Part shown: in pieces, positions 14,770-64,000 of the stretch
Layout: each line of letters starts with the position of its first letter
Position numbering within the stretch: the first letter of the stretch is position 1
From: an uncultured Chitinophagaceae bacterium
GTDB taxonomy: Bacteria > Bacteroidota > Bacteroidia > Chitinophagales > Chitinophagaceae
Direction of reading: 5' to 3'
Length of the DNA: 64,000 nucleotides
Assembly: GCA_937981995.1 (NCBI GenBank)
Contig: CALJNC010000012.1
Span: forward strand, 62,001-126,000
Program-made: the position numbers and the translations under genes
The notes under the pieces: generated by a model
Told to the model about the DNA's origin: nothing
Databases searched by the model: none
What the model saw: the letters and a program-made list of their open reading frames with translations, nothing else

Positions 14770-15153
14770 ATGACTTTTGAGATTGCATTAAAATCTATTT
14801 TTGAGCGTGGCACCGAACAATTTAACGATGGTTCTTTTGCTAGCTTTGAAGATATCTTAATCGATGGCTTGCAATACCATTGCCCTGAAATTAAGACTCA
14901 AAATTTCTATACGCCAGAAACTAACTTAATTAGTAGAGACAGAGTGCTTAAATATTGGTCAGATTTACATGCAAAGTTTGATAATCAAATTACTAGTTTT
15001 AAATATATAAACGTTGGAAAGGTTTCTCATATTCGTTGTTTTTACGAAAAAGCAAATTTTACATTAGACGTAGAAATGCATTTTAACGAATATGCCAAGG
15101 TGTTTAAAATCATTAATAAGTTACAAGATTCTCCTTCTTTAATTCGCGCTTAA
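14770..15153 (+). CDS. Small NTF2/SnoaL-like protein
   Basis: 127 residues. An N-terminal helical part (EIALKSIFERGTEQFNDG) is followed by strands and VLKYWSDLHAKFDN, TSFKYINVGKVSHIRCF and VEMHFNEYAKVFKI. This pattern is seen in nuclear-transport-factor-2/SnoaL-like cone folds. No catalytic residues are assignable. It has its own promoter-like box and converges on the dioxygenase-like gene, overlapping by four bases. Confidence 0.5.
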   Translation: MTFEIALKSIFERGTEQFNDGSFASFEDILIDGLQYHCPEIKTQNFYTPETNLISRDRVLKYWSDLHAKFDNQITSFKYINVGKVSHIRCFYEKANFTLDVEMHFNEYAKVFKIINKLQDSPSLIRA

Positions 15154-17315
15154 AATCGTTGTGCAATTTCCTGAGACAATAGTCTATCATAAATATCATC
15201 GGTTGAGCTATTTAATGATGAGATAGCTGCAAGGATTGTTTTTGCAAGTGGTTTAATTTCTAAAGGTGGTTTATCAATATTTAGTGGAGTGTCTTCTAAT
15301 ATTTTTGTGAGTTGTATCGCTTTTGTTTTTATTTCCTCTAAGCTTAATCTATTTTTTTCTTCAATTACTTTAGCCAAGGGCCATCTGTTTCTTATACTTT
15401 TTACTTTTCTTTTAATTTTTTTTATAGGACATTGTTTATTCCAATCTGGTTCATGTTGAGTTATCCAATTTGAAATTTTTTGAGCGCTTTTTTCAAGCTT
15501 GGCTTTATAAATAGTTTCAATTCTTGAGTTAGAATGACTTCTCAAAAAATCCTTGAAAGGGTAAGAGGAGTGCGGGTCATCATTTTCAAAACATTTTTTT
15601 GAGGCAATAGCAATTTCAAGGTTATAAATATTATTTAACTCTATGATAGAATGCAAAAGTTGTTTTTGTTCATTCCACAAACTGTTTAAACTTTCATTTT
15701 TAAATTTGGGTTCTACCAGTTTTCCAATGCTTAGCTTTTCTACAACTTTATGCGCTATTGCACTATCACTATGTATTCTTCCATACTCAGTTGTTATGCT
15801 GCTTCCTACATATTCAAGTAAGGTATCATCGCCACCTTTGTGTTTTGATATAAATTTAGTTATATCTAAAACCTTATTATCAATCTCTACCCAGTAACCA
15901 GTTTTTGAGCTGCTATGTGTAGCTAAGTTTGAGAGTGAAACTTCATCTCCGTTTAATTCCTTACGTGGTATTTTTTCAGTTGGAGTTGTTTTTTGCTTAT
16001 GCGCAAATGGACATTTTGGTCTTTCCTTCCGCATATTACGCAATGCATCATTTACATTATTCCATTCCTCGTCATTGTCTGCATTAAATCCTCCAATGGT
16101 TTGTGGGCGCCCTACCTTAAAGGAGGTTTGGATAAAACTATATACTCGCTTCCTATGAATATTTAAAAAACCATTATCGCCAGAATAAGAGTCAATTAAT
16201 TCAATGTATTTATTTTTCAATTCTTCTGAGTTGCTATCAGCTATATAATCGGCGATTGATACTGAGGCAATTGCTTCTAAGAACCTTTTTACTGCAGGTG
16301 GGTATAGACTTCTAATTTTAAGTGCTTCATGAGAGATGCCCTCATCGTATTTTTTTCTTCCAATAAACGTATCTATCAAATGAGCATAAGGGAATGAAGT
16401 ACCGCTGGGTCCCGGTATACCTTCTTTTATAGGCACGGCAAATGACATCATTGTTTTGGTAAAAACCACAGGGTCCAAATGATTTTTTTTGCTTTTTAGA
16501 TAAGCTAATTTGGCAAAAGAAACATGTGTTACTTTTTTAAGGCAAGCAATCATTACATCTAAGGCATTAGAAAGTGCAACATGGTCATTGTTGCTTGCCG
16601 CCTCTTGTGCTTCAGCGGCTGCTTGTACCATGGGGGATGCGCTTGCCATCATTTCGGTTTGAATGAGATAAAGATTTCGCTCTTCTTTACAATTAAAAAT
16701 TGGATAAAGCAATTCCATATTTTCTAGCGTGCGCTCGCTGTTATTTTCATTTTTAAATTGCCAATTATAAGCTATCAAATCAAAATAAGATAAAAAAGGT
16801 TCGGGCCTACCTAAACGATTACATACAATACGCCATGGGGTCATAATAGAATCTGGCACATCGGCTTGAGTAACTAATGGTCCGGCACAGTTTACATAAG
16901 CATGCGCAAAAAAACCTAAAAGAATACTTGCGCGTGCTAGAAATTTATCAGGTAGATTTTGGGCGGTTGGGAGTAATACGGACATCTCATCCAGTTCTTG
17001 CCGAAATAAGAGTTCTTTAATAAGCACAGGTGTTTTGTGGCTAATAGTATCCCATAAACTAAACGCACTTGGAAGGTGTTTTAATGGTTCGTTTTTTGGC
17101 ATGAATCCGTGACTGGAGGATAAGTAACCTAGGTTGGTATGCCCTAATTGCTCGTTTTCTCTCTCAGCGCCATACAATACTTGCATCGAAGAAGATCGGT
17201 ATTCCATAATCTTGAGGTTCGTTGGAAATCTAAAGTTACCCAATATCGTTAACTTATCATTAGTAATACTAGTGTAAAATGTACACAATGCGCTAATCCA
17301 CTGCGTTTCAGGCAT
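15150..17315 (-). CDS. Indoleamine 2,3-dioxygenase-like protein fused to a cytochrome b5 domain
   Basis: 721 residues from the longest start; the ATG at 17207 (685 residues, beginning MEYRSSS) is an alternative. Residues about 85-410 align along their length with indoleamine 2,3-dioxygenases: YVNCAGPL, RLGRPEPFLSYFDLIAYNW, HLDPVVFTKTMMSF, GPSGTSFPYAHLIDTFIG and YPPAVKRFLEAI. His387 in NIHRKRV sits where the proximal haem ligand (human IDO1 His346) lies, and GRPQTIGGF replaces the GTGG loop. Residues about 455-535 form a cytochrome b5 domain with His492 (HKGG in place of HPGG) and His515, 23 apart, ending IGKL. Residues about 540-721 are helical, Lys-rich and unrecognised. CP motifs occur at 435 and 629. 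IDO oxygenates tryptophan-type indoles, but the substrate here is unproven. No kynurenine-pathway genes adjoin. Confidence 0.8.
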   Translation of the reverse strand: MPETQWISALCTFYTSITNDKLTILGNFRFPTNLKIMEYRSSSMQVLYGAERENEQLGHTNLGYLSSSHGFMPKNEPLKHLPSAFSLWDTISHKTPVLIKELLFRQELDEMSVLLPTAQNLPDKFLARASILLGFFAHAYVNCAGPLVTQADVPDSIMTPWRIVCNRLGRPEPFLSYFDLIAYNWQFKNENNSERTLENMELLYPIFNCKEERNLYLIQTEMMASASPMVQAAAEAQEAASNNDHVALSNALDVMIACLKKVTHVSFAKLAYLKSKKNHLDPVVFTKTMMSFAVPIKEGIPGPSGTSFPYAHLIDTFIGRKKYDEGISHEALKIRSLYPPAVKRFLEAIASVSIADYIADSNSEELKNKYIELIDSYSGDNGFLNIHRKRVYSFIQTSFKVGRPQTIGGFNADNDEEWNNVNDALRNMRKERPKCPFAHKQKTTPTEKIPRKELNGDEVSLSNLATHSSSKTGYWVEIDNKVLDITKFISKHKGGDDTLLEYVGSSITTEYGRIHSDSAIAHKVVEKLSIGKLVEPKFKNESLNSLWNEQKQLLHSIIELNNIYNLEIAIASKKCFENDDPHSSYPFKDFLRSHSNSRIETIYKAKLEKSAQKISNWITQHEPDWNKQCPIKKIKRKVKSIRNRWPLAKVIEEKNRLSLEEIKTKAIQLTKILEDTPLNIDKPPLEIKPLAKTILAAISSLNSSTDDIYDRLLSQEIAQRF

Positions 17316-50759: not shown

Positions 50760-51116
50760 TTATTCTATAACTGTTCCGTCTTCGGCTATGCGAGGAGCTT
50801 TTTCAGTAGAAACTTTTGTACCAGCACTTGCATGTGCTTTACTTTTACAACAAGCTTTTTTACCTGCAGTTTTGCTACAAGTAGATTTTGCAGCTGTTTT
50901 ACTTTTACAACAAGCTTTTGTTGCCGCAGTTTTGCTACAAGTAGATTTAGCTGCTGTTTTACTACAACAAGCTTTTTTCGCAGCCGTTTTGCTACAGCTT
51001 TTTTTAGCACATGCAGTTTTAGAACATTTCGCTTTGTTTTTACAACATTTTTTGTCTGCCATTACTACACCTGCCGAAAGCATTACAGTAAGAGCTAATA
51101 AAATAAACTTTTTCAT
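50760..51116 (-). CDS. Secreted Cys/Lys/Ala repeat protein
   Basis: 118 residues. A signal peptide (cut near residue 20) precedes a low-complexity part with 13 Cys, built from the repeat CSKTAAK-x-x-C-(C)-x-K (about 35-93), ending in an ordinary tail KAPRIAEDGTVIE. The DNA shows about 60-bp imperfect repeats, so the region has grown by duplication. Cys pairs in CC and CxxxxC spacing with many Lys suggest metal binding or disulphide cross-linking in the periplasm; this is inference. No homologue recognised. Confidence 0.65.
   Translation of the reverse strand: MKKFILLALTVMLSAGVVMADKKCCKNKAKCSKTACAKKSCSKTAAKKACCSKTAAKSTCSKTAATKACCKSKTAAKSTCSKTAGKKACCKSKAHASAGTKVSTEKAPRIAEDGTVIE
50848..50967 (-). 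repeat. Imperfect ~60-bp tandem repeat in the Cys-rich gene
   Basis: The segments starting with ACAACAAGCTTTT at about 50848 and 50908 (plus strand) repeat most of GCAGTTTTGCTACAAGTAGA and what follows, with small indels of 3 bases that keep the frame. Confidence 0.75.
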
Positions 51117-62632: not shown

Positions 62633-64000
62633 CTATTGAATATCATTCAACATCGCTTTAATTTGTTCATTAGCTGGATAAAGCCGCGATGCTTTTTTGA
62701 GCGTTTGTTTTACTTTTTCTAATCGGTTCAATTTATAATTGGCCACAGCCAAGTTTATGTAAGCTTGCTCATTTATAGGGTTTAATGCAATGGCTTTTTC
62801 CGTAGACTTTATAGAGGCGTCTAATTTATTCTCAGTCAAATAAATGTATCCTAGCGCTTTATGGGCTTCCTCGTATCTATCATTCTCTTTGAGTATAAAA
62901 GTCAATTCTACTTTGGCCTCCGATAGGTTTTCGTTTTTAATCAGCGCATTGATAAGTTTCATTCTAAAATCTAAACCATAGGGCATAAGTTTTACCGCTT
63001 GTTTATGATATAAAATGGCGCTTTTTACATCACCTCCTTGAAACTGACTTTCACCAATTCTGTAAGCTGTCCATGCATCATTAATCGTTGCTGGTTTTTC
63101 TTTTGCAGAAAGTTCAATGATTTTTTTATAATCTTTTTTTAAGAAGTATGTGCGAAGTACATCTTTATCCAAGCTACCATTATTACCATTAGAAAGATAC
63201 TCCAAAGCGGTATCCAATAACAACGGATTGGGTTCATAGCGCTCATAAAATTCAAGAAAGGCACGTGCTTGAATGCGCTTACTTGGGTTTTCATTATTGT
63301 AAGAGGTTAATCCTATAAACTTACGAATAGCCTCTTCGTTTTCTATGGTAGGTGTCCTTCTAATAAAATGATCGGTTACCGCTACATGCGGAATGTCAAT
63401 ACTTTCATTTTTTGCCATATGGCAGCTTGAGCAATTGTCATTTTTACTTTGTCGTACACTAAGTTTCTCGGTACAAGTATTACTTGTGTTATGACAACTT
63501 TTACAGGCTGTATTATATTGTGCTACCGGCGTTGCTTCGATGCTTATATGTGGGTTATGGCATGTAATACAACTCATTTTACCACTATTTACATAACAGT
63601 TACTCATTTTCATACGCTCCACATGGCTTGCCATAATCATATGTTTTTGGATACCACTAAAACTTGGCATAAATACACTCATGGTATTTTTGAGCTCTTG
63701 CGTTGGTAAGAAATCAAAGAAATTTTTTCCATCATTTAAAACTGCAATTCCTTGTAGGTGGCATCGCTGGCAAAGGTTATTTTGCTGTTCGGTTGTAAGG
63801 CGTTTAGGATTTACAATTGAGTAGTCGGGTCCTTTAGAAGTATCTATAATTTTGCCTACTTTTTTTTCAGCTACATGTATACTTCCCGGCCCATGACAAC
63901 GCTCGCAATCAATGCCTTGTTTTACTTCGGCATATTTATTGAGGCTTCCTTCAATATGCTCAGGGTATCCATTGTGGCACGTAATACATTCCGTTTGTAT
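62633..64000 (-). CDS. Multiheme cytochrome c with TPR repeats (5' end outside window)
   Basis: 456 residues are visible; the frame stays open to base 64000, so the ATG at 63682 is internal. Six CxxCH haem sites can be read: CITCH, CERCH, CQRCH, CITCH, CKSCH and CSSCH. The C-terminal part (from about base 63150 to the end) is made of TPR helices such as YRIGESQFQGGDVKSAILYHKQAV and EEAHKALGYIYLTENKLDASIKS. Family: cytochrome c-554/NrfB-like tetratricopeptide proteins of Bacteroidetes. It probably works in the periplasm or on the outer membrane in electron transfer; partner unknown. Confidence 0.88.
   Translation of the reverse strand: MQTECITCHNGYPEHIEGSLNKYAEVKQGIDCERCHGPGSIHVAEKKVGKIIDTSKGPDYSIVNPKRLTTEQQNNLCQRCHLQGIAVLNDGKNFFDFLPTQELKNTMSVFMPSFSGIQKHMIMASHVERMKMSNCYVNSGKMSCITCHNPHISIEATPVAQYNTACKSCHNTSNTCTEKLSVRQSKNDNCSSCHMAKNESIDIPHVAVTDHFIRRTPTIENEEAIRKFIGLTSYNNENPSKRIQARAFLEFYERYEPNPLLLDTALEYLSNGNNGSLDKDVLRTYFLKKDYKKIIELSAKEKPATINDAWTAYRIGESQFQGGDVKSAILYHKQAVKLMPYGLDFRMKLINALIKNENLSEAKVELTFILKENDRYEEAHKALGYIYLTENKLDASIKSTEKAIALNPINEQAYINLAVANYKLNRLEKVKQTLKKASRLYPANEQIKAMLNDIQ

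Follow-up and report, generated by a model that had tools for sequence, protein, structure and literature searches.

An indoleamine 2,3-dioxygenase-like haem domain fused to cytochrome b5 in a Chitinophagaceae genome

Can an enzyme of the indoleamine 2,3-dioxygenase (IDO) fold carry its electron donor in the same chain, and would such a protein still act on tryptophan? A gene of an uncultured Chitinophagaceae bacterium raises both questions: its single product combines an IDO-type haem domain, a cytochrome b5 domain and a C-terminal tail. The way IDO is reduced in cells is itself unsettled. Cytochrome b5 has been suggested as the reductant in mammals, in a paper that also reports human IDO1 activity with b5 to be lower than that measured by the methylene blue assay (PMC4191572), and a 2026 preprint still considers it unclear whether such reducing systems work in vivo (PMC13142367). 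The initial annotation of this locus, which took b5 to be a known electron donor of mammalian IDO1, is supported insofar as b5 has been suggested for this role.

The gene lies in a window of 64,000 nucleotides, by which we mean the whole stretch of DNA that was analysed. Its reading frame is uninterrupted and lies at the coordinates first annotated (Table 1). It converges tail-to-tail with a plus-strand ORF (14770-15153), the two sharing 4 bases. In GC and GC3 the gene does not stand out from the rest of the window, and neither measure points to a recent foreign origin. Translation may begin downstream of the first codon, at Met37, since residues 1-36 have no counterpart in the second copy described below (its protein being taken from the first listed start) and the GC3 of this stretch, 0.42 over 36 codons only, departs from the 0.20-0.31 found elsewhere in the gene.

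Table 1. Position of the fusion gene and of its predicted features in the window
Feature	Position	Strand	Evidence or remark
IDO-like/cytochrome b5 fusion gene	15150..17315	minus	721 aa, single open frame without internal stop
Met37, candidate true start codon	17205..17207	minus	Homology with L004 starts here; residues 1-36 deviate in GC3
IDO-type haem domain, residues 65-418	16062..17123	minus	Pfam PF01231; hhalign; AF2 model with Foldseek and VIA matches to IDO1/IDO2
DPVVFTKTMMSFAVPI, residues 281-296	16428..16475	minus	Identical in both fusions; Met290 at the position of the substrate-carboxylate Arg
PGPSG, residues 301-305	16401..16415	minus	Replaces the GxSAAQ/GxTGAQ motif of plain IDOs
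His387, predicted proximal haem ligand	16155..16157	minus	Column of the conserved histidine of plain IDOs; hhalign
TIGGF, residues 406-410	16086..16100	minus	Replaces the active-site loop GTGGT
Cys435-Pro436-Phe437	16005..16013	minus	Common to both fusions
Cytochrome b5 domain, residues 461-533	15717..15935	minus	PF00173; cytochromes b5 of the PDB
His492, predicted b5 haem ligand (in HKGG)	15840..15842	minus	Kept in both fusions
His515, predicted second b5 haem ligand	15771..15773	minus	Kept in both fusions
C-terminal tail, residues 536-721	15153..15710	minus	26% identical to the L004 tail

A scan of genome_contigs returned one relative, on contig JAHDCE010000433.1 of a Saprospiraceae MAG (hereafter L004). 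Its protein, 673 aa long from the first listed start, has the same order of IDO domain, b5 domain and tail, and is 37% identical to the window protein overall, with 45% identity in the IDO part, 31% in b5 and 26% in the tail. As this independent copy holds the same chain in an open frame, the sequencing frameshift that the initial annotation had named as a danger is dismissed, and an assembly artefact is likewise refuted. With six 8-residue patterns drawn from a single protein the scan has low sensitivity, and two copies are therefore a lower bound.

As far as sampled, the fusion is rare. It occurs in one of 59 genomes of relatives and one of 395 genomes of the phylum (both with a single-protein query), and in one genome each among 389 of the class, 298 of the order and 394 of the family; the one is always the window genome, and the samples overlap, so that these counts are not additive. 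Samples of two other families, which contained no positive control for the fusion, gave 0/20 and 0/16, and the search of two other genomes of the same genus did not find it. The L004 genome matched in none of the genome samples and may not have been drawn. The IDO family itself (PF01231) is present in 2 of the 395 genomes of the phylum, window genome included; plain IDOs number four in the order sample and twelve in that of the class. Two further matches in the order cover the b5 part only: one (L011, same order as the window genome) is a b5-desaturase-like ORF as judged by eye; the other, L012, is a 452-aa open frame. Viral contigs searched with the window protein, a fusion profile and a b5 alignment yielded no confirmed relative, and a further query, L007, gave no match. 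Seven plasmid records matched, none covering 80% of the query, and the two examined (L005, L006) are plain IDOs. A survey of how often the two domains share a protein had been proposed at the outset; in the sampled genomes and contigs it found the window genome and L004 only. The initial annotation knew of no description of this arrangement in a bacterium; likewise, no bacterial IDO-b5 fusion appears among the matches listed from open-licence papers.

In a tree of 27 IDO domains, from which L019, L022 and L034 were left out, the two fusions group together with full support (100/100), and the branch leading to them measures 9.2 changes per column. Judged from this tree they are a distinct clade, whose position is unsure because of the long branch.

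Some plain IDOs merit a separate record. A very divergent one with an ATGGT loop, from another Bacteroidota family (L002:1255-2676), ends a branch of 8.2 in the tree, and another (L034) has one TAG inside the matched stretch, possibly marking a pseudogene or an error. In another family of the class (L036:2693-3811 and L037:2695-3567), the gene after the plain IDO encodes in both genomes the same P-loop ATPase (by eye Mrp/ApbC-like), a conserved neighbour. Nine IMG/VR contigs classed as viral (L017-L025, up to 511 kb) encode stand-alone IDO-like proteins, all nine with intact Arg and GTGGT motifs and including two identical pairs; a BFVD Harvfovirus protein named tryptophan--tRNA ligase also matches the IDO-domain model (E 1.7e-7). 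The viral-contig IDOs may belong to large viruses or come from contaminating host DNA.

To which families do the two domains belong? Both assignments of the initial annotation hold under profile search. The Pfam IDO family matches residues 66-292 with 113.4 bits (E 1.4e-32) against a cut-off of 26, and the L004 protein passes the same cut-off with 94.4 bits. Profile-profile comparison with six plain IDOs (hhalign) aligns residues 65-418 with a probability of 99.9 (E 4e-33) and places the predicted proximal histidine where the 16-row alignment does, the column of His387 being histidine in 16 of 16 rows. Identity to the seven plain IDOs of one alignment is 18-27%, and the fusion gene is the only PF01231 match in the whole window genome. 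A PDB sequence search with the fusion protein returns IDO2 (residues 64-378), IDO1 and cytochromes b5. Structure prediction, also suggested initially, gives an IDO fold for residues 37-425: the AF2 model (nine rows, mean pLDDT 72.6, pTM 0.77) has 50 listed Foldseek matches in the PDB, all of them IDO1 or IDO2 (best E 1.4e-9), and superposes on IDO2 in VIA with Z 29.9 and rmsd 2.6 over 322 residues. Seven of the input rows of this model are plain IDOs, one identical pair among them, so that the fold is not independent of homology. A full-chain model made from two rows was set aside, with a mean pLDDT of 38. Searched at E <= 1, where HMMER filters discard most weak matches, the protein matches neither the PrnB (PF08933) nor the TDO (PF03301) profile; one further Pfam family is listed, SNaCT10 (E 0.18), under its cut-off. 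The protein has no NCBIfam match above cut-offs, no PHROGs match at E <= 0.01 and no Rfam match at gathering scores. The hhalign and structure matches point to an IDO/TDO-type helical haem domain with a predicted His ligand, as the superfamily of heme-dependent aromatic oxygenases (HDAO) is defined.

The b5 domain is recognised by PF00173 with 47.6 bits (E 1.8e-12) against a cut-off of 23.7, and in L004 with 44.8 bits. The two histidines first proposed as its ligands are kept in both copies, and the haem sites of both domains, H387 on one side and H492/H515 on the other, look intact at the sequence level. The reported change of HPGG to HKGG is real in the window copy; L004 has HPGG. Of the two Cys-Pro motifs pointed out initially, the one at 435-436 is common to both copies, whereas that at 629-630 is absent from L004. 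The tail, said to be of no recognised family, indeed has no Pfam family at E <= 1.

The pocket of the IDO domain is where the fusions depart from plain IDOs. In IDO1, Arg231 interacts with the substrate carboxylate (PMC12921851). The corresponding column of the 16-row alignment holds arginine in all 14 plain IDOs and methionine in the window protein (Met290) and L004. The active-site loop is altered in both, to TIGGF in the window protein and TIGGY in L004. All 28 plain IDO loci compared carry both the Arg motif and [GA]TGGT, and the two fusions lack both; the 28 include two identical pairs, and their ORFs were chosen by a script using the same motifs, no locus being without one. About 13 residues downstream of the Arg motif are also missing according to the hhalign gap, or 21 columns in another alignment. 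Both fusions have glutamine (Gln219 in the window protein) at the column which we take to be that of IDO1 Ser167; the plain IDOs of the 16-row alignment have Thr or His there.

The register around the arginine depends on the alignment: D281 stands opposite Arg in four alignments with viral-contig IDOs and M290 in three others, and none of the alignments made has an arginine at that column. In trials restricted to viral rows, single rows gave D281 and M290 equally often, and subsets of 2 to 6 rows gave D281 more often. The alignment picked for the model has the M290 register, in agreement with hhalign and with the alignments including bacterial IDOs; since it was chosen by that register, the AF2 model cannot decide between the two. 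Residues 275-306, the substrate-facing stretch, mostly have pLDDT below 50 in the model. Lys287 or Lys297, both nearby, could in principle replace the arginine. This altered active site suggests that the usual tryptophan reaction is no longer performed. By sequence family and fold the domain is an IDO; we do not call the protein an IDO enzyme, because the two defining features of a tryptophan dioxygenase that were tested are lacking.

These observations bear directly on the reading first put forward, a true tryptophan/indoleamine 2,3-dioxygenase with a built-in reductant, in which b5 would merely keep the haem ferrous. Its structural half stands: the two domains share one chain and their axial ligands are kept. 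Membership of the IDO family with a proximal His, the suggested role of b5 as mammalian IDO reductant (PMC4191572) and a kynureninase in the window genome (TIGR01814, contig C9, 468.7 bits, cut-off 246.4) all speak for its catalytic half as well. Against this, neither copy keeps the carboxylate Arg or the GTGGT loop shared by all 28 plain loci, a stretch of about 13 residues is missing, and a TDO is encoded elsewhere in the genome, on contig C65, where PF03301 (cut-off 34.9) matches in two stretches with 182.7 and 87.3 bits. We consider a tryptophan dioxygenase unlikely.

The surroundings of the gene name no pathway. It is flanked on each side by one ORF without Pfam match, beyond which the window holds an amidohydrolase (dihydroorotase-like by eye) and mraZ, together with what looks by eye like the cell-division cluster. 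The neighbourhood of L004 differs and includes a divergent Hsp70 gene. The initial statement that tryptophan-catabolism genes are absent nearby fits the 19 window ORFs scanned, of the 63 listed with at least 100 aa; it does not extend to the genome, where the TDO and kynureninase lie on contigs other than that of the window. Elsewhere in the window, a tandem repeat at 50838-50996 (period 60, 2.7 copies, 88% matches) falls in ORFs overlapping on both strands, and a TPR protein at 62633-63682 has a weak match to paired CXXCH (multihaem) motifs (E 7e-6).

Our preferred reading, to which we give a probability of about one half, is a self-contained, b5-coupled haem oxygenase of IDO fold and HDAO type, maybe a monooxygenase, with a substrate other than tryptophan. 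The His-ligated haem of the N-terminal domain would bind O2. The in-chain b5 would take electrons from a separate reductase and hand them to this haem, first turning it ferrous; if the reaction is a monooxygenation, b5 would then also supply the additional electrons for which a dioxygenation has no use. The reported electron source for monooxygenation by IDO is ascorbate or NADH; dioxygenation, once the enzyme is first reduced, needs no such electrons (PMC12921851). With this consumption of reductant reported and the tryptophan-recognition residues gone, a b5-coupled monooxygenase appears most likely. The TDO and kynureninase elsewhere in the genome also count in favour of this reading. Given the altered pocket, with neither the carboxylate Arg nor GTGGT, the substrate would be bound otherwise than tryptophan in IDO; it is probably a different molecule and may have no amino-acid carboxylate. 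In the monooxygenase MarE, SLGGR takes the place of the GTGGS of human TDO, and the carboxylate Arg is retained (PMC11904535); loss of this Arg alone therefore does not mean monooxygenase. Counting against the oxygenase reading are the want of any substrate or pathway clue, the two differing neighbourhoods and the number of copies, two only.

Could the protein be no enzyme at all, and instead a sensor of haem, O2, NO or redox state, or a haem-handling protein, whose tail serves in signalling or partner binding? The tail without Pfam match, the Cys-Pro-Phe conserved after the IDO domain and the remodelled pocket would all suit such a role. We nonetheless give it a low probability: the IDO domain is the best-conserved part (45%, as against 26% for the tail), both fusions have exactly the same pocket-side motif DPVVFTKTMMSFAVPI, and Pfam recognises no output domain.

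A peroxide-using HDAO-type peroxygenase or peroxidase, with b5 as electron acceptor or regulator in place of donor, seems quite improbable, as oxygenase-fused b5 domains are generally electron donors and no sequence feature indicates peroxide use. What favours it is the remodelled pocket, together with the chemical diversity of HDAO members (PMC11791213, PMC11904535). A decaying or artefactual chimera, to which the HKGG of the window copy and the absence from the two other searched genomes of the genus might point, is very improbable given open frames in two genomes, conserved motifs and ordinary GC and GC3.

Returning to the b5-coupled oxygenase, we advance a wider proposal more tentatively and at somewhat less than even odds: the fusions may form a new branch of IDO-fold enzymes, haem monooxygenases that are self-sufficient apart from their reductase, draw electrons from the in-chain b5, have lost amino-acid recognition and act on a non-tryptophan substrate. 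An as yet uncharted IDO-fold activity, to which the altered pocket points, would widen the chemistry of His-ligated haem oxygenases. A natural single-chain pair would also allow electron transfer from b5 to the IDO haem to be measured directly.

Among known systems, plain IDOs (PF01231; human IDO1 and IDO2, and bacterial and archaeal members) resemble the fusion in fold, domain length, proximal His and many helix motifs; the fusion differs from them by the loss of the carboxylate Arg, of GTGGT and of about 13 residues, and by the added b5 and tail. Redox enzymes with a fused b5 include front-end desaturases, nitrate reductase and flavocytochrome b2, in which b5 feeds the catalytic domain in cis; here the catalytic partner is, in contrast, an IDO-fold haem domain. 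PrnB and MarE, HDAO members of IDO/TDO fold with changed chemistry, are comparable to the fusion in their His-ligated haem, predicted in the latter, and in altered pocket loops; the fusion differs in matching neither the PrnB nor the TDO Pfam profile, and the passages on such enzymes in PMC11791213 and PMC11904535 mention no b5 domain. Mammalian IDO1 with its separate cytochrome b5 consists of the same two modules acting in trans (PMC4191572), whereas the fusion unites them in a single polypeptide whose IDO pocket is non-canonical.
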